A program made the position numbers and the translations under genes. From contig NZ_CP015880.1 of NCBI RefSeq assembly GCF_000697965.2, positions 3,429,001-3,493,000 on the forward strand: DNA of 64,000 nucleotides, given 5' to 3'. This DNA is from Ensifer adhaerens (GTDB lineage: Bacteria > Pseudomonadota > Alphaproteobacteria > Rhizobiales > Rhizobiaceae). Below, piece after piece: positions 16,603 through 23,113 of the stretch; the first letter of the stretch is position 1; each line of letters begins with the position of its first letter. Below the pieces are notes generated by a model, which had not been told where the DNA came from, made no database searches, and saw only the letters and a program-made list of their open reading frames with translations.

Positions 16603-16843
16603 ATCATTGTCCTTCATTCGCCGTGTCACATCCCGGCCATTGAGGTGACTATAGGCGAAGGGACTTGCGTAAAGCTGGATGCATGACATCAGGCGAAGGG
16701 CACAGCACGCAGCGTCGCGTTATTCTCCATGCGCTCCCTAACGGGGTCGACCGACAAAGGATAGAGGATAGCGACCTATTTCGCTCGCGCCGGGCGCACG
16801 AGCACGCTAGAGCATGTCGCCGACGAACGACGCGGGAATGAGC

Positions 16844-17347
16844 ATGTCGAAGAAAACCAAGAGCGACGAAACCGCGGACGTGCAGCGCCTGAAACTCGAT
16901 TTTCCCGACATCCATGCGGATCTGATCGCCGGCCGCATCCCGTCGCTACGCAAGGCGCTTATCGCGGCAGGGCTTAAGGACGAGCGCACGCGCCTCGACA
17001 AGCTCAAGAATTCCTGGACCAAGGCAAGCCCCACCGAGCGTGAAACGTTCCTCAAGTGGCTGAGCAGCAATGGCGGCCCGGACGGGCTTGCCCCACACGC
17101 TCATATCGATCCGCCGCTCGCAGCGCCCCCCGCGATTGCCAGCGGTCGCTACCTGCTCCCCGAAACGATCGCCGAAATCCGCACGATCATGAATCGCCGC
17201 CGGATGCGGGCGAACGACATCATGGCCGAGATGGGATTTGCCGGCGACGACCTGTCCCTCACCCGCGCCCTGTCCAAGGGCGCAAGCCTGCGGCTCTCGG
17301 TGATTGCCGCGCTGGAAACCTGGTTGCGCAACAACGCGGCGGAGTGA
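16844..17347 (+). CDS. Unknown protein with two helical, possibly DNA-binding, segments
   Basis: About 167 residues. The N-terminal half is helical and basic (LRKALIAAGLKDERTRLDKLKNSW). A Pro/Ala linker follows at about residues 85-100. The C-terminal 65 residues (from RYLLPETIAEIRTIMNRR to the end) have the spacing of a helix-turn-helix fold, but this is only an impression. Starts at 16814 and 16838 are in frame; 16844 has GGGA at normal SD distance. It lies 148 bases upstream of the PspA-flotillin operon on the same strand and could be a regulator of it. Confidence 0.6.
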   Translation: MSKKTKSDETADVQRLKLDFPDIHADLIAGRIPSLRKALIAAGLKDERTRLDKLKNSWTKASPTERETFLKWLSSNGGPDGLAPHAHIDPPLAAPPAIASGRYLLPETIAEIRTIMNRRRMRANDIMAEMGFAGDDLSLTRALSKGASLRLSVIAALETWLRNNAAE

Positions 17348-17474
17348 ACCCGCCGGACAATCGTCCGCTTTCAACGCGCCCCTCTTCCGCCCGCTGCAAC
17401 CCGCATTGCCGGCGCGCGACCGTTGCGCGCGTTCAGCAGAAGAAAATTGCAACTTAAACCTGAGCCAATCCTTG

Positions 17475-17495
17475 AAAGCACGAAAGTGGTGCTTT
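17475..17495 (+). promoter_or_regulatory. Perfect inverted repeat abutting the start codon of the PspA-fusion gene
   Basis: Seven-base arms AAAGCAC (17475-17481) and GTGCTTT (17489-17495) flank a seven-base loop and end exactly before ATG 17496. In RNA it would form a hairpin over the ribosome-binding region; in DNA it could be an operator. Either would control the whole operon. Confidence 0.55.
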
Positions 17496-18641
17496 ATGTT
17501 ATTGCTCATGGCTCAGGGCAACCACACGTCGATCTTGTACTACGATCTCGCGCCGGACGCGGAGGCCAGACGTGCGCTGGAAGAAACCTTCGTTGCCTAC
17601 GGCGACATGCTGGCGATGCTCGATGAACTCGCCGGCGAAAAGGCGGGCGCCAATCTCGTAACGTTGCATGAACTTGCCTACGAAACGGTCCGGGAGCGCA
17701 CCGGGCTTCCGGCGCGCATGGTCACGCTTGGACTGCGTGACTTCGCGGCAAACCGCGGACAGCAGGCCAATGCCGAAAGGCTGCCGCTGGACGACAAGCT
17801 TTTCGCAATCAAGGGACCGTCGGATCTGACCGTCGCCACCGTGCGTGGTCGCGTCGCGATCCCATACGACGTCGCCGGCTATTCGCCGGGCACTCTGAAT
17901 ATCTTCGCCGCCCAGCTCGTTGCACAGCACGGCGGCTATCAGATCCACATTGGCGTCACCACGCATTCCGACCGAACGGAGAAGAAAATGATGACGAATG
18001 AAGGCATCCTATCCCGTATGGGCCGCTTGATCGCCGGTCTCGCCAATGCCGCCGTCGACAAGGCGGAAGGCAGCAACAAGATCGTGATCGTCGAACAGGC
18101 ACTCCGCGAAATCGACGCGGCGGCTGAAGAGGCCCGGGTCGATATCGGCCAGGCACGCGCCGAGGAGTATCGCATCCTCAGCCGCCGCGACGAAATCGGC
18201 GCCGATCTCGAAAAGCTGGACGAAAAGATCAGCACCGCCATCTCTGCCGCCCGGGAAGACCTTGCCAAGGCCGGCGTCGCCCGCCAGATCGACCTGGAAT
18301 CGCAGCTCGCCGCCCTGGACAAGGCGCTCGCCGGCGCCCGCACCGATCTCGAAGAGGGCCAGCAGGCGCTGCAGGCGGTGCTTGCCACCCGCCGCGAGGC
18401 CGAGGCGCGGCTCGCCGATCTCAAGCGCAGCATCGCCCAGTTCCCCGAGAGCAAGGTTTCGGGCCTGGCGAAGCCCAGCCCGGTGGACGGTGCCGCCCGC
18501 GCCGCTGCCGCCGTCTCCCGCGCCACGGGCGTACCGGGCGGAGAACACGGCAACAGCGCCGAGCTGGACGAACTCGACCGCCTGCATCGCGATCGGGCGA
18601 TCGACGCGAGACTGGCCGCACTCAAGGCAAAGCAGCACTGA
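17496..18641 (+). CDS. TnpB-like N-terminal segment fused to a PspA/IM30 domain
   Basis: A 381-residue protein (377 if the ATG at 17508 is used). Residues 1 to about 160 lack any PspA resemblance. They carry the order LHELAYETVRERTGLPARM then FAIKGPSDLTVATVRGRV, which matches from memory the REC/wedge part of IS1341-type TnpB proteins. No RuvC nuclease part follows. From about residue 161 (NEGILSRMGRLIAGLAN) the protein is a PspA/IM30 coiled coil, the ESCRT-III-like membrane-stress scaffold. The frame is continuous with no stop, but ATG 17988 with GGAG upstream could also give PspA alone. It is followed closely by YqiJ-like and flotillin genes. The PspA part is firm; the TnpB relation needs a search. 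Confidence 0.75.
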   Translation: MLLLMAQGNHTSILYYDLAPDAEARRALEETFVAYGDMLAMLDELAGEKAGANLVTLHELAYETVRERTGLPARMVTLGLRDFAANRGQQANAERLPLDDKLFAIKGPSDLTVATVRGRVAIPYDVAGYSPGTLNIFAAQLVAQHGGYQIHIGVTTHSDRTEKKMMTNEGILSRMGRLIAGLANAAVDKAEGSNKIVIVEQALREIDAAAEEARVDIGQARAEEYRILSRRDEIGADLEKLDEKISTAISAAREDLAKAGVARQIDLESQLAALDKALAGARTDLEEGQQALQAVLATRREAEARLADLKRSIAQFPESKVSGLAKPSPVDGAARAAAAVSRATGVPGGEHGNSAELDELDRLHRDRAIDARLAALKAKQH

Positions 18642-18646
18642 CGCCG

Positions 18647-19276
18647 ATGCTGTTCTTCCTCGCCCCGGAATCCCTACCCTTCGCGGTTGCGGCGGTGATG
18701 TTGGCCGCCTTCACCGGCATCGAGCTCCTCTGCCTGCTGCTCGGCTTCTCACTGGGTGAGGCGATCGACAAGGCCTGGCTGGACGACCACAACGCATTGG
18801 GCGGGCTGATGTCCTGGTTCAATGTCGGCGGCGTACCGCTGCTCGTGCTGCTGATGCTTTTCCTCGGCCTCTTCGCGATGATCGGTTTTGTCATCCAGGC
18901 GGTGGCCGGGGCCCTGTGGGTGCCGCTGCCTGCCCTTGTCGCGGCGCTACCGGCACTCGCCGTCTCGCTGCCCGCAGTTCGGATGTCGAGCCGATGGGTG
19001 GCAAAGATCGTGCCGCGTGACGAAAGCTATGCCGTCGATCTCGGCGATTTCGTCGGCCGCAGCGGCGAAGTCACCGTCGGCCCACTGGACCAGGGCCTGC
19101 CGGGACGCATCCGCCTCAAGGATCGCCACGGCAACTGGCATGTGCTGCGCGCGCGCGCCGCCCGCAACGAGCAACCGATCGCCATCGGCGCGCAGGTGCT
19201 CGTCGTCGATCGCGTTTCCAACATTTTCATTGCGATATCGGCGCCGGCAGACCTGCTGACGCCGCCCAATCCTTAA
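18647..19276 (+). CDS. YqiJ-like OB-fold membrane protein
   Basis: A 209-residue protein with three or so N-terminal hydrophobic helices (LFFLAPESLPFAVAAVMLAAFTG onward) and a soluble C-terminal half (about residues 125-209) rich in beta strands. The pattern SGEVTVGPLDQGLPGRIRLKD fits the NfeD/OB-fold type found next to flotillins. It starts six bases after the PspA-fusion stop and ends 33 bases before flotillin, so the three form one operon. In E. coli, yqiJ-yqiK is the comparable pair. It probably tethers or modulates the flotillin assembly at the inner membrane. Confidence 0.78.
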   Translation: MLFFLAPESLPFAVAAVMLAAFTGIELLCLLLGFSLGEAIDKAWLDDHNALGGLMSWFNVGGVPLLVLLMLFLGLFAMIGFVIQAVAGALWVPLPALVAALPALAVSLPAVRMSSRWVAKIVPRDESYAVDLGDFVGRSGEVTVGPLDQGLPGRIRLKDRHGNWHVLRARAARNEQPIAIGAQVLVVDRVSNIFIAISAPADLLTPPNP

Positions 19277-19309: not shown

Positions 19310-20986
19310 ATGTTTTATGAACTCTTGGTGCCGGCCGGCATCGGCATCGTCCTGATCCTCGGCATCGGCTTTGTTCTTGCATCGCTCTATACCCGCTCGA
19401 GCCGCGACGAAGCCTATGTGCGCACGGGCCTTGGCGGCCAGAAGGTGGTCCTCGACGGCGGCTCCATCGTGCTGCCGATCTTCCACTCGATCGCCCGCGT
19501 CAACCTGAAGACGCTGCGCCTTGAAGTCCGTCGTGGCGAAGGCGACGCGCTGATCACCAAGGACCGCATGCGCGTCGATATCGGCGCGGAATTCTATGTC
19601 CGCGTGAAGCCCGATGCCTCCTCGATCGCGCTTGCAGCCCAGACACTCGGCGACCGTACCAACGATGCCGAACAGCTGCGCGTGCTGATCGAGGCCAAGT
19701 TCGTCGACGGTCTGCGCTCGGTCGCCGCCACCATGAGCCTCGACGCGCTGCAGGAACAGCGCATGGATTTCGTCAAGGCGGTGCAGGAAGCGGTCGGCGC
19801 CGACCTGCAGTCGAACGGTCTCGAACTCGAATCCGTTTCGCTGACCCGTCTCGACCAGACGGATATCAAGCACTTCAACGCCAACAACTTCTTCGACGCG
19901 CATGGTCTTGCGGCGCTGACCCGCATTACCGAGGGCCGCAAGAAGGAGCGCAACGAGATCGTGCGCGATACCGAAGTCGCGATCGCCCAGAAGGATCTGG
20001 AAGCCCGCCAGCAATCGCTGACGATCGAGCGCACCAAGCGCGAGGCGGAGCTGAACCAGGAACGCGACATCGCCAACAAGTCGGCCGCCACCCGCGCCGA
20101 AACCGCGCAGCAGGAACAGGCGGCCAAGCGCGCCGAGGAAGAAGCTCGCATCGCCGCCGAGCAGGCGATCGCCGAACGCGAGGCGCTTGCCAAGCAGGCG
20201 CGTGAAAGCGCCAACATCGACGCCACCCGCGCCGTGCAGCAGCGCGACACGGAAGCCCGCCGCGACCTGCAGATCGTTTCGCAGGAAAGCGCCATCGCGG
20301 TTGCCAACAAGAGCCGGGAAGAGTCCGAGGCGAAGGCCCAGGCTGAAACCGCCCGCGCGCTCGCCATCGCCGCGGAAGAAAAGGTGGAGACGGCAAAGGC
20401 CGTGGAAATCGCCGAACGCGAACGCCAGATCGCCGTCATCGACGCCCGCAAGAACGCCGAAACCGAAGCGACCGCCGTGACCGTCGGCGCCGAAGCCGAA
20501 AAGCAGGCGGCCCTCGACCAGGCCGATGCGATCAAGACGCTGGCCACCGCCGAGGCCGACGCCGCGATCATCAAGGCGAAGGGCGTGCTCGAAACCGGCA
20601 AGGCCGCAGCCGAGAGCGAGGCGCTGCTCAACGAGGCCCGCAACAAGCTGAGCTCCGCCATCATTGAATTCGAGATCCTGCGCGAACGCATCCGCATCAT
20701 TCCCGAAGCGCTGGCAGAAGCGGTCAAGCCGATCGAGAAGATCTCCGACATCCGCATCTTCGACACCGGCGGCATGCTCGGCCGCAACGGCGGCGGCGAC
20801 GGTGCTGCCAACGGCATCGGCCTTGGCGACGGGTTGGCGGGCCAGCTCCTGTCCTACCAGGCCAACAAGCCGATCGTCGACCAACTGCTGAAGGAAGCAG
20901 GCTTCAACGGCGAAAATGCGATCTCGTCGCTGCTCGGCAACCTGCAGGCGGCACCGTCGCCGGCGGAGAAATCGCCGAAGAAGTAA
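19310..20986 (+). CDS. Flotillin family protein (YqiK type)
   Basis: A 558-residue SPFH protein. One N-terminal membrane helix (about residues 6-26, LVPAGIGIVLILGIGFVLAS) leads into an SPFH/band-7 domain to about residue 195. A long Ala/Glu/Lys coiled coil of roughly 250 residues with EAK-type repeats follows, then a C-terminal segment with glycine-rich GGMLGRNGGGDGAANG. Flotillins oligomerise on the cytoplasmic face of the inner membrane and organise lipid microdomains. PspA and an OB-fold partner in the same operon suggest a membrane-repair or stress unit. The SD is ACGGAGCAACC before ATG 19310. Confidence 0.92.
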   Translation: MFYELLVPAGIGIVLILGIGFVLASLYTRSSRDEAYVRTGLGGQKVVLDGGSIVLPIFHSIARVNLKTLRLEVRRGEGDALITKDRMRVDIGAEFYVRVKPDASSIALAAQTLGDRTNDAEQLRVLIEAKFVDGLRSVAATMSLDALQEQRMDFVKAVQEAVGADLQSNGLELESVSLTRLDQTDIKHFNANNFFDAHGLAALTRITEGRKKERNEIVRDTEVAIAQKDLEARQQSLTIERTKREAELNQERDIANKSAATRAETAQQEQAAKRAEEEARIAAEQAIAEREALAKQARESANIDATRAVQQRDTEARRDLQIVSQESAIAVANKSREESEAKAQAETARALAIAAEEKVETAKAVEIAERERQIAVIDARKNAETEATAVTVGAEAEKQAALDQADAIKTLATAEADAAIIKAKGVLETGKAAAESEALLNEARNKLSSAIIEFEILRERIRIIPEALAEAVKPIEKISDIRIFDTGGMLGRNGGGDGAANGIGLGDGLAGQLLSYQANKPIVDQLLKEAGFNGENAISSLLGNLQAAPSPAEKSPKK

Positions 20987-21416
20987 CGCGAAACCGACGG
21001 GATCCCTGGCCTCGCGGCTGGGGATCAGACTATGGGTGCGGGCATCAGGTCAGGCCGGCCCGCGCGTGACCGCAAGCATCCTGCGGCGCTGTCGTCGCGA
21101 CCCTTAAACCGGCCCTGCGGCCGACGGTCCGCCTGCTTCCCTCCTGCCTCGGCTGCCGGGTCACGGGCCGCTCAACATGCTGGCGCACTAGCGCGCGTGT
21201 TCAATGCGCCACGTTCTGCCGTTTCCGCAAGTTGCCGAGAACTGGCCATTTACATCCACAAGTGCTAATATTTTTGGGCCGAAGGTTCCAGAGGAACCCG
21301 CCTCGCGACCGACAATCAGATAAACGCGAATTGCTTGCAGCCAATTGCCGCGCCGTCGGACGACCGCTCCATGAGCGCCGTCGATGTCCGACGACATCAA
21401 CGTGGAGGAAAAGCCA
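20987..21416. other. Gap without a recognisable gene
   Basis: 430 bases between flotillin and the DUF937 gene. An imperfect hairpin at about 21000-21027 (GATCCC/GGGATC outer arms), without a T-run, could end the flotillin operon. I see no convincing coding frame. Confidence 0.5.
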
Positions 21417-22523
21417 ATGGCCAGCAATCTTGTTTCGTATATCGCGCAGATGCTTACCCCTGACATGATCGCACGCATCGCTTCGGCGCTCGGGCTCGAC
21501 AGCAGCAAGGTGCAGGGCGCCGTCAGCGCCGCCATTCCCGCGGTGCTGGCGGGACTGACGGGTGTCGCCGCGCAACCGGGCGGGGCGCAGAAGATCGCCG
21601 ATACCGCCAGTCAACAAGGCGGATCGCTCGACAGTCTCATCGGGATGCTTCAGGGAGGCGATCAGGCGACGCTTAGCCAGAACGGGTCACAGATCATTTC
21701 GTCAATCTTCGGGGCAAAGGACGGCAGTGCGCTGGCAAGCGCCATCGGCGGGATCTCCGGCATGGACCCGCGGGCGAGCGGTTCGTTGCTGGCGACGCTT
21801 GCTCCCCTCGTGCTGGGTGGCCTTGCCCGGCAGAGCGGCGGCGATCTCAGCGCCAATGGCATTGCCGGACTGCTCGCGAGCCAGAAGGACAACATCGCGG
21901 CCGCCCTGCCCTCCGGCGCAAGAGAACTGCTTGGCGGAACAGGCTTGCTCGGCGGGCTCGGCGCTTCGGCACAGTCTGCCGCGGCCTCGGCGAGCCAGGT
22001 CGCCCGCGACGCCGCGACAGCGGCTTCGTCCGTCGGTGGAGCCGGTCAGCGCGCAGCCGAGGCGGCGACGCCGTCCGGGTCGCGCAACTGGCTCTACTGG
22101 GTGATTGCCGTGCTCGCGCTTGCAGCCGTGCTCTTCTATCTGTTCGGCAGACCGAGCGGAGAGGTCGCGCCACAGGCTGGCACGGCGGGGCAAAGCTTGA
22201 CGGTCGGCGGGGTCGACATCGGCCGGCAGGTCCAGGACAGCATGGCGAGCCTGCAGACAACGCTGACCGGTGTCACGGACGCCGCCTCGGCCACGGCCGC
22301 CCTGCCGAAACTGGAGGAGATTTCAGCCGGGCTCGACAAAGTCACGGGCGCCACCGGGCAACTGTCTGCCGAACAGAAGGCAGCCCTTTCCGCGCTCGTC
22401 GGGCCGATGATGCCAACGCTCAACGGGCTTTTCGACAAGGTGCTGGCGATACCCGGCGCTTCCGACATCGTGAAACCCGCAATCGATGCATTGAAGACCA
22501 AGCTCGCCTCACTGGCGACCTGA
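21417..22523 (+). CDS. DUF937 (YidB-like) membrane protein
   Basis: A 368-residue protein. The N-terminal 190 residues are Ala/Gly-rich helical repeats with VQGAVSAAIPAVLAGLTGVA and SLLATLAPLVLGGLARQSG, the DUF937 signature. A single membrane helix occurs at about residues 220-240 (WLYWVIAVLALAAVLFYLFG). The C-terminal part, about residues 245-368, has helical segments such as LPKLEEISAGLDKVTGATGQL. The function is unknown. The start at 21417 is chosen for its strong SD (GGAGGAA) over a longer frame from 21384. Confidence 0.8.
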   Translation: MASNLVSYIAQMLTPDMIARIASALGLDSSKVQGAVSAAIPAVLAGLTGVAAQPGGAQKIADTASQQGGSLDSLIGMLQGGDQATLSQNGSQIISSIFGAKDGSALASAIGGISGMDPRASGSLLATLAPLVLGGLARQSGGDLSANGIAGLLASQKDNIAAALPSGARELLGGTGLLGGLGASAQSAAASASQVARDAATAASSVGGAGQRAAEAATPSGSRNWLYWVIAVLALAAVLFYLFGRPSGEVAPQAGTAGQSLTVGGVDIGRQVQDSMASLQTTLTGVTDAASATAALPKLEEISAGLDKVTGATGQLSAEQKAALSALVGPMMPTLNGLFDKVLAIPGASDIVKPAIDALKTKLASLAT

Positions 22524-22615
22524 AGAACCAGCCCAAGCATGAGCTGCCGGCCCTGCATTCCGCACGGACCGTTGGCGATTGTCATCGACGAAACCGGATA
22601 GGAAGGAAGACGGCC

Positions 22616-23113
22616 ATGGCCGACAAATCGACATTCACCCCGGAAGAATGGACGCTGCTCCTGGAGAGCGTGATGATGGCCGGCATTGCCGTGACGGCCG
22701 CGGAGCCGAGCGGCCTCTGGGGGATGATGAAGGAAGGCATCGCCAACAGCAGCGCACTTCTGCAGGCAAAAGCCGATGCCGCAGCAAGCCCGCTCGTCAA
22801 GGCGCTGGTCGCCGACTTCGAAACCTCGGAGGGCCGGACCGCCGCTCGCGATGGGCTGCAGACGAAACTCAAGGGTGCCAAGCCGGAGGACATGAAGGCC
22901 AGGTGCATTGAAACGCTGAATCAGGCCCGGACACTCGTCGAGACCAAGGCGCAGGGTGATGTCGCAGCCTTCAGCACATGGCTATACCAGATCAGCCAGA
23001 AGGTGGCGGAAGCCGCCAAGGAAGGCGGCTTCCTGGGCTTCGGCGGCGTCGCTGTCAGCGATGCTGAGAAGGCCACCTTGTCGGAAATTTCCGCGGCGCT
23101 GAAAGTCGCCTAG
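22616..23113 (+). CDS. Conserved helical protein of unknown function
   Basis: A 165-residue soluble, probably all-helical protein beginning MADKSTFTPEEWTLLLESV. It contains SGLWGMMKEGIANSS and a C-terminal GGFLGFGGVAVSDAEKATLSEI. I do not recognise a catalytic motif. Its SD (AGGAAGA) is good. It follows the DUF937 gene by 92 bases on the same strand and both proteins have no assigned function, so a shared role in envelope stress is possible but only suggested by position. Confidence 0.75.
   Translation: MADKSTFTPEEWTLLLESVMMAGIAVTAAEPSGLWGMMKEGIANSSALLQAKADAAASPLVKALVADFETSEGRTAARDGLQTKLKGAKPEDMKARCIETLNQARTLVETKAQGDVAAFSTWLYQISQKVAEAAKEGGFLGFGGVAVSDAEKATLSEISAALKVA

Follow-up and report, generated by a model that had tools for sequence, protein, structure and literature searches.

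In E. coli, PspA restrains the DNA-binding regulator PspF, an AAA+ sigma-54 activator, depending on the state of the membrane. A survey of PspA homologues reported little variation in domain architecture for more than 98% of them, naming as fusions those with NlpC/P60, those with PspAA and tandem repeats, and described YjfJ-type PSP operons in which genes for PspA, YqiJ and flotillin lie together; its main text contains no occurrence of TnpB, Cas12 or transpos- (PMC11237479). TnpB itself (IS200/IS605/IS1341) is best introduced through ISDra2 TnpB, for which it is reported that the WED+REC lobe grips the TAM duplex, a dsDNA that sits in the WED/REC cleft, that residue F77 contacts TAM bases and its replacement (F77A) lowers cleavage, and that WED together with RuvC provides most of the hold on the guide-RNA scaffold (PMC10097598). 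Domesticated descendants of TnpB, the TldRs, are described as having an inactivated RuvC, as keeping gRNA and DNA binding, and as being RNA-guided (PMC13418256).

Here we describe a gene that is, virtually beyond doubt, a RuvC-less TnpB WED+REC lobe joined in one frame to PspA/IM30. Its lobe is collinear with that of TnpB, has the same topology (beta1, helices, beta2-7) and shares conserved positions including Y58, R62, D95, T111, G114 and R115. Unlike TnpB, the fusion lacks RuvC and the zinc-ribbon (TNB), is accompanied by no guide RNA detected in our Rfam and upstream search, and is joined to PspA in an operon with membrane genes, the PspA, YqiJ and flotillin genes standing together as in YjfJ-type operons. 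It resembles TldR as a domesticated TnpB descendant that lies beside non-transposon genes and probably has a transcriptional role, but TldR keeps its inactivated RuvC whereas the fusion has none at all, and in the fusion a putative palindromic operator would replace the guide. A literature search, with most subscription papers outside its coverage, returned no TnpB-PspA fusion, no RuvC-less TnpB lobe used alone, and nothing for PspA combined with Rhizobium and flotillin.

Results

The window, by which we mean the whole 64,000-nt stretch of DNA analysed, belongs to a 7.27 Mb genome whose nearest named relatives, judged by the fusion gene, are Ensifer. On the plus strand, the fusion gene (17508..18641) encodes a long product of 377 aa that comprises the TnpB-derived lobe (17508..17990, 161 aa as cut for profiles) and the PspA/IM30 part (17988..18641). 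The PspA_IM30 coiled-coil domain (PF04012) spans residues 170-305 with an E-value of 1.3e-13 and 51.5 bits, above the Pfam cut-off of 33.9, which makes the protein a member of the PspA/IM30 family. Short gaps separate it from the second and third genes of the operon, both also on the plus strand: a YqiJ-like membrane protein with YqiJ_N and an OB fold (18647..19276; PF21001 3.3e-17, PF07290 6.5e-11) and a flotillin with SPFH and Flot domains (19310..20986; PF15975 3.2e-27, PF01145 2.5e-17). The first-pass annotation of this DNA had proposed an in-frame TnpB-PspA fusion at the head of a flotillin operon, and this is what we find: the frame from 17496 to 18641 is open and free of stops up to and through the PspA junction, with YqiJ and flotillin downstream. 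RefSeq annotates the copy on an Agrobacterium plasmid as a single CDS, 'PspA/IM30 family protein'. Around the operon, a 177-aa upstream neighbour (16814-17347) has no convincing family match and adjoins the fusion in several Ensifer relatives, and a DUF937 protein followed by a 165-aa protein with no Pfam match occupies 21384-23113, 3' of flotillin.

Searched alone as a single sequence, the first ~165 residues had no match in Pfam, NCBIfam, PHROGs, PADLOC or PDB sequences, and a profile of the lobe had none among PDB sequences either. The motifs of the lobe are collinear with the TnpB series 'LHxxxYxxxR..GLsAQ ... YDxR ... VSxxTVxGR', and hhalign scored lobe against TnpB at 121.6, whereas 30 column shuffles gave 8.5-21.7, a reversed profile gave 18.4 and the PspA part gave 12.7; on these controls, chance similarity was rejected. 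The alignment to TnpB stops ahead of GxDLG, with PspA following, so that WED+REC (the REC lobe of the nuclease) is present and the RuvC domain with its D-E-D is absent. The motifs quoted in the first-pass annotation are present in the translation with the REC/wedge likeness ascribed to them, the TnpB motif that it gave is correct, and the loss of the nuclease part is confirmed. In a tree, 15 fusion lobes fell on one side of a 100/100 branch and 46 TnpBs on the other. Weaker searches delimit the relationship: PF12323 (HTH_OrfB_IS605) reached at best an E-value of 0.12, in 2 of 7 lobes, the remaining weak matches being to unrelated families, and the lobe profile matched classic IS605 TnpBs (11 rows) with a probability of only 1.7. 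The link to TnpB thus goes via the fold and an IS1341-like subgroup. Searches for a source transposon were negative in the genomes covered: PF01385 had no match in 41 genomes including our own, and TIGR01766 had none in our own genome.

The fusion is kept across the Rhizobiales, and beyond. Scanning a one-genome-per-species collection with a 7-sequence lobe alignment yielded 57 loci, all of which encode lobe and PspA in one ORF, with YqiJ and flotillin matches downstream of it in every case; an oddity of a single genome was rejected on this evidence. Titles of fusion records include Ensifer, Rhizobium, Neorhizobium, Martelella, Bradyrhizobium, Xanthobacteraceae, Reyranella, Vineibacter, Dongia and Rhodospirillales. 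The distribution is patchy: the gene is carried by 8 of 16 same-genus genomes and by 4 of 289 genomes in a class-level draw made with a single-sequence search (own genome counted in both), and two order-wide profile searches, which overlap with the earlier genomes, matched 8 of 76 and 4 of 17 genomes and returned only one unfused lobe. The lobe codons are under purifying selection, with dN/dS between 0.075 and 0.18 in 10 of 11 pairs; the most distant pair reaches 0.40.

The promoter and start signals were compared over 62 distinct sequences, obtained by collapsing identical coding sequences among the lobe-PspA loci of L001-L071 other than L011 (68 loci). In the window, reading of the plus strand gives a -35-like element TTGAAA, preceded by C, at 17472..17477 and, 17 nt past it, a -10-like element TATGTT at 17495..17500. 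The ATG at 17496-17498 sits inside this -10-like element, and a start there was rejected; it is also contradicted in the congeners G001, G008 and G012, where a TAA within the stretch matched from 17496 leaves a 379-aa frame. The true long start is almost surely the ATG at 17508, and of the ORF 17496..18641 that had been annotated, the open frame stands and the start gives way to 17508. At a fixed offset, the -35 reads TTGAAA in 30 of the distinct loci and one-base-shifted TGAAAA in 26, or 56 of 62 together. The long start codon lies 10-12 nt past the palindrome described below in 61 of 62 loci, and 2 nt past it in L064; because this distance is fixed, the -10-like element ends only a few bases ahead of the start codon (7 nt in the window). 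A Shine-Dalgarno sequence precedes the long start in 3 of 62. Such spacing is the geometry of a leaderless mRNA and suggests a putative leaderless-type start for the fusion. By inspection, several TnpB relatives also have a -10-like element a few bases ahead of the start. Within 90 nt upstream of the start of many IS1341-like TnpBs (L113, L119, L127, L129, L139, L155 and others) we noted a hairpin, CCCxCGGCTTTAGCCGxGGGAGGAAT, that resembles an RNA scaffold end placed 5' of the gene.

A further start signal lies at the junction. All 62 distinct sequences have an ATG at the PspA boundary, represented in the window by ATG codons at 17988 and 17991 that would yield a short product, and in 61 of them a Shine-Dalgarno sequence precedes it (GGAG at 17978..17981, plus strand, within CGGAGAAG), compared with 11 of 247 other internal ATGs. 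Synonymous diversity at the Shine-Dalgarno codons 156-158 falls to 0.24, 0.09 and 0.00, whereas the 276 columns average 0.446. The gene thus carries two conserved start signals: a leaderless-type start from which the fusion would be read and, further in, an ATG with a Shine-Dalgarno sequence that would serve PspA on its own. This arrangement is new here. Translation solely from 17988, the case that the first-pass annotation had named against its own reading, sits poorly with the conservation of both.

Overlapping the promoter spacer is a palindrome, AAAGCAC-GAAAGTG-GTGCTTT (17475..17495, plus strand). Over the 50 nt upstream, 42 of the 62 distinct loci have a best inverted repeat of 7/7, 18 have one of 6/7 and 2 have one of 5/7 (the best repeat being elsewhere in L021 and L033, and in another register in L064), whereas shuffles reached 7/7 in 57 of 3100. 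At fixed register, pair 5 is C-G in 39, C-A in 9, G-C in 5, T-G in 5 and T-A in 4, so that symmetric variants (C-G, G-C, T-A) exist beside 14 half-changed ones (C-A, T-G). Upstream conservation in 24 loci is limited to about -26 to +5 around the palindrome. As a promoter-overlapping, conserved inverted repeat, it has the form expected of the operator of an autoregulator with a palindromic site, and we regard it as a putative operator. The general pattern AAAG-N9-17-CTTT occurs within 60 nt upstream of 60 of the 62 fusions but of none of the 46 TnpBs; descent of the operator from a TnpB promoter element is accordingly unsupported. In L064 and L225, which come from the same Rhodospirillales contig, the palindrome does not overlap the promoter spacer but follows the -10-like element and precedes the start codon, and a further half-site lies upstream. 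Since the L064 palindrome is downstream of the likely -10, the palindrome is not merely promoter sequence.

Within genomes, the pattern AAAGNACN7GTNCTTT occurs once in our own genome and once in each of 7 congeners carrying the gene. Over 30 same-family genomes it is found in all 8 carriers and in none of the 22 non-carriers, and the real sites are all at the gene; the reversed pattern, used as a control, has 0-2 matches per genome, so that an isolated site could arise by chance. In G323, G097 and G246 the gene is accompanied by the corresponding distant-clade pattern, which G097 also has at one site elsewhere; four lobe-free or unfused-control genomes lack the pattern. A promoter palindrome, AAAGCAC-N7-GTGCTTT, found once per genome and exactly in the 8 of 30 same-family genomes with the gene is new here, and this co-occurrence could reflect shared inheritance of one locus.

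One lobe position varies together with the half-site. Every one of the 52 near-clade sequences has R at residue 70, as does L064; the other 9 distant sequences have Q there. For all 53 R70 proteins, GCAC stands in one arm (14) or both arms (39) of the site, and for all 9 Q70 proteins it is missing from both; likewise, L229 has R70 with GCAC in both arms, and L224 has Q70 with no GCAC. Of 11 columns that separate the clades almost completely, only 70 and 102 show the near-clade state in L064. Residue 70 aligns with Q61 of L103, a position that is Q in 37 of 46 TnpBs, and Q61 maps in turn to the TAM-contacting F77 of ISDra2, although the step from this TnpB to classic TnpB is a modest profile match (probability 73). 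It is possible that residue 70 reads the half-site. The association requires one change on the tree, and the covariation is therefore a single event rather than a replicated one.

Operons that lack one of the two partners were also found. Among 31 genomes matched, we read the 7 strong lobe-free matches together with L009, and in all eight of these PspA-YqiJ-flotillin operons (L009, L177-L182, L185) a separate RHH-like gene of ~170-190 aa replaces the lobe. Its RHH identity was called by eye at the N-terminus and was unconfirmed by Pfam and PDB profile searches. AAAG-N9-17-CTTT is present in 0 of 8 within the 120 nt upstream of the replacement gene, and by inspection the promoters carry other, ATGCATACA-like repeats. 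Conversely, G554 holds a stand-alone lobe gene of 159 aa (L229, 1489-1977, minus strand) with no PspA after it and YqiJ next, and this locus retains AAAGCAC-CCGATCG-GTGCTTT, 11 nt ahead of its GTG. The private promoter palindrome follows the lobe. Both observations are new here: an RHH-like gene in the lobe's place without such a palindrome in eight operons, and a lobe and palindrome retained where the operon has lost PspA.

Discussion

We consider it reasonably likely, from comparative sequence evidence, that the fusion is a DNA-binding autoregulator coupled to the state of the membrane rather than an RNA sensor. The lobe would retain the reading of dsDNA that TnpB uses for TAM recognition, would bind the palindrome as a dimer or within a PspA oligomer, and would repress, or tune, its own, putatively leaderless promoter. 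Under envelope stress, recruitment of PspA to the membrane would draw the fused lobe away from the promoter, and removal of the lobe would induce the operon, supplying short PspA, YqiJ and flotillin. That sequestration of PspA at the membrane relieves repression is suggested by analogy with E. coli PspA-PspF. The proposed logic is the same, with one polypeptide possibly doing the job of two; in place of an AAA+ sigma-54 activator, the regulator would be a TnpB-derived domain fused in cis.

The first-pass annotation had instead suggested that RNA binding by the lobe could connect the sensing of RNA with membrane repair. TnpB is indeed RNA-guided, and WED is reported to give part of the RNA contact in ISDra2 (PMC10097598), so a guide-like or regulatory RNA might be the ligand. 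The domain that grips much of the RNA scaffold, RuvC, is gone, however, and mean net charge is -1.7 (range -6 to +4) over 67 fusion loci, some identical, as against +6.3 (range -16 to +20) over 46 TnpB N-lobes. Nor did the locus present an RNA feature: no Rfam family reached threshold near the operon (one sub-threshold match, RT-15, E 0.25), the 110 nt upstream in 24 loci hold no conserved block besides the promoter and palindrome, and the gaps between the operon genes are short. The RNA search covered the families known to Rfam and the region upstream of the coding sequence, and its negative outcome applies to these. The missing RuvC, the lower charge and the lack of an RNA feature make RNA sensing less likely, and we judge it improbable. 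The same charge, low and not net basic on average, calls for caution about strong DNA binding by the lobe.

It is also conceivable, though on balance unlikely, that an unlinked regulator acts at the palindrome, or that the palindrome belongs to a special promoter, and that the lobe serves protein-protein contacts or assembly and controls PspA oligomers, like the CesT/Tir chaperones beside other PspAs. CTTGAAA resembles heat-shock -35 elements. A slightly acidic average lobe would suit an assembly role, and one class of PspA-flotillin-YqiJ operon is reported to pair PspA with a CesT/Tir chaperone-like partner (PMC11237479). Against this, a site that is unique in the carrier genomes and absent from the non-carriers is unlike that of a multi-target regulator, lobe and site persist in an operon without PspA, and half-site type tracks residue 70; a trans-acting regulator dedicated to this single site is nevertheless conceivable. 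Still more remote is the idea that short PspA, from 17988 or 17991, is the sole product and the upstream frame goes untranslated. The strong, conserved internal Shine-Dalgarno and the rarity of such a sequence at the long start agree with it; selection on the lobe codons, the single ORF in all 57 fusion loci, a conserved promoter geometry that puts the long start at the expected 5' end of a leaderless mRNA, the stand-alone lobe gene and the single CDS in RefSeq all speak for a translated lobe.

Returning to the autoregulator, we give about an even chance to the fuller proposal that a TAM-reading lobe, after loss of the nuclease half and the guide RNA, became a sequence-specific, RNA-independent transcription regulator linked covalently to an ESCRT-III-like membrane scaffold, that membrane stress removes this repressor, and that the nested start supplies free scaffold. 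The mechanism is directly testable with a 161-residue domain and a 21-bp site. If it is correct, a PAM/TAM-reading lobe could serve as a DNA-binding domain in the absence of RNA, residue and half-site would have been exchanged naturally at a TAM-contact position, and the PspA stress response would have a one-protein design that combines membrane sensing with control of its own operon.
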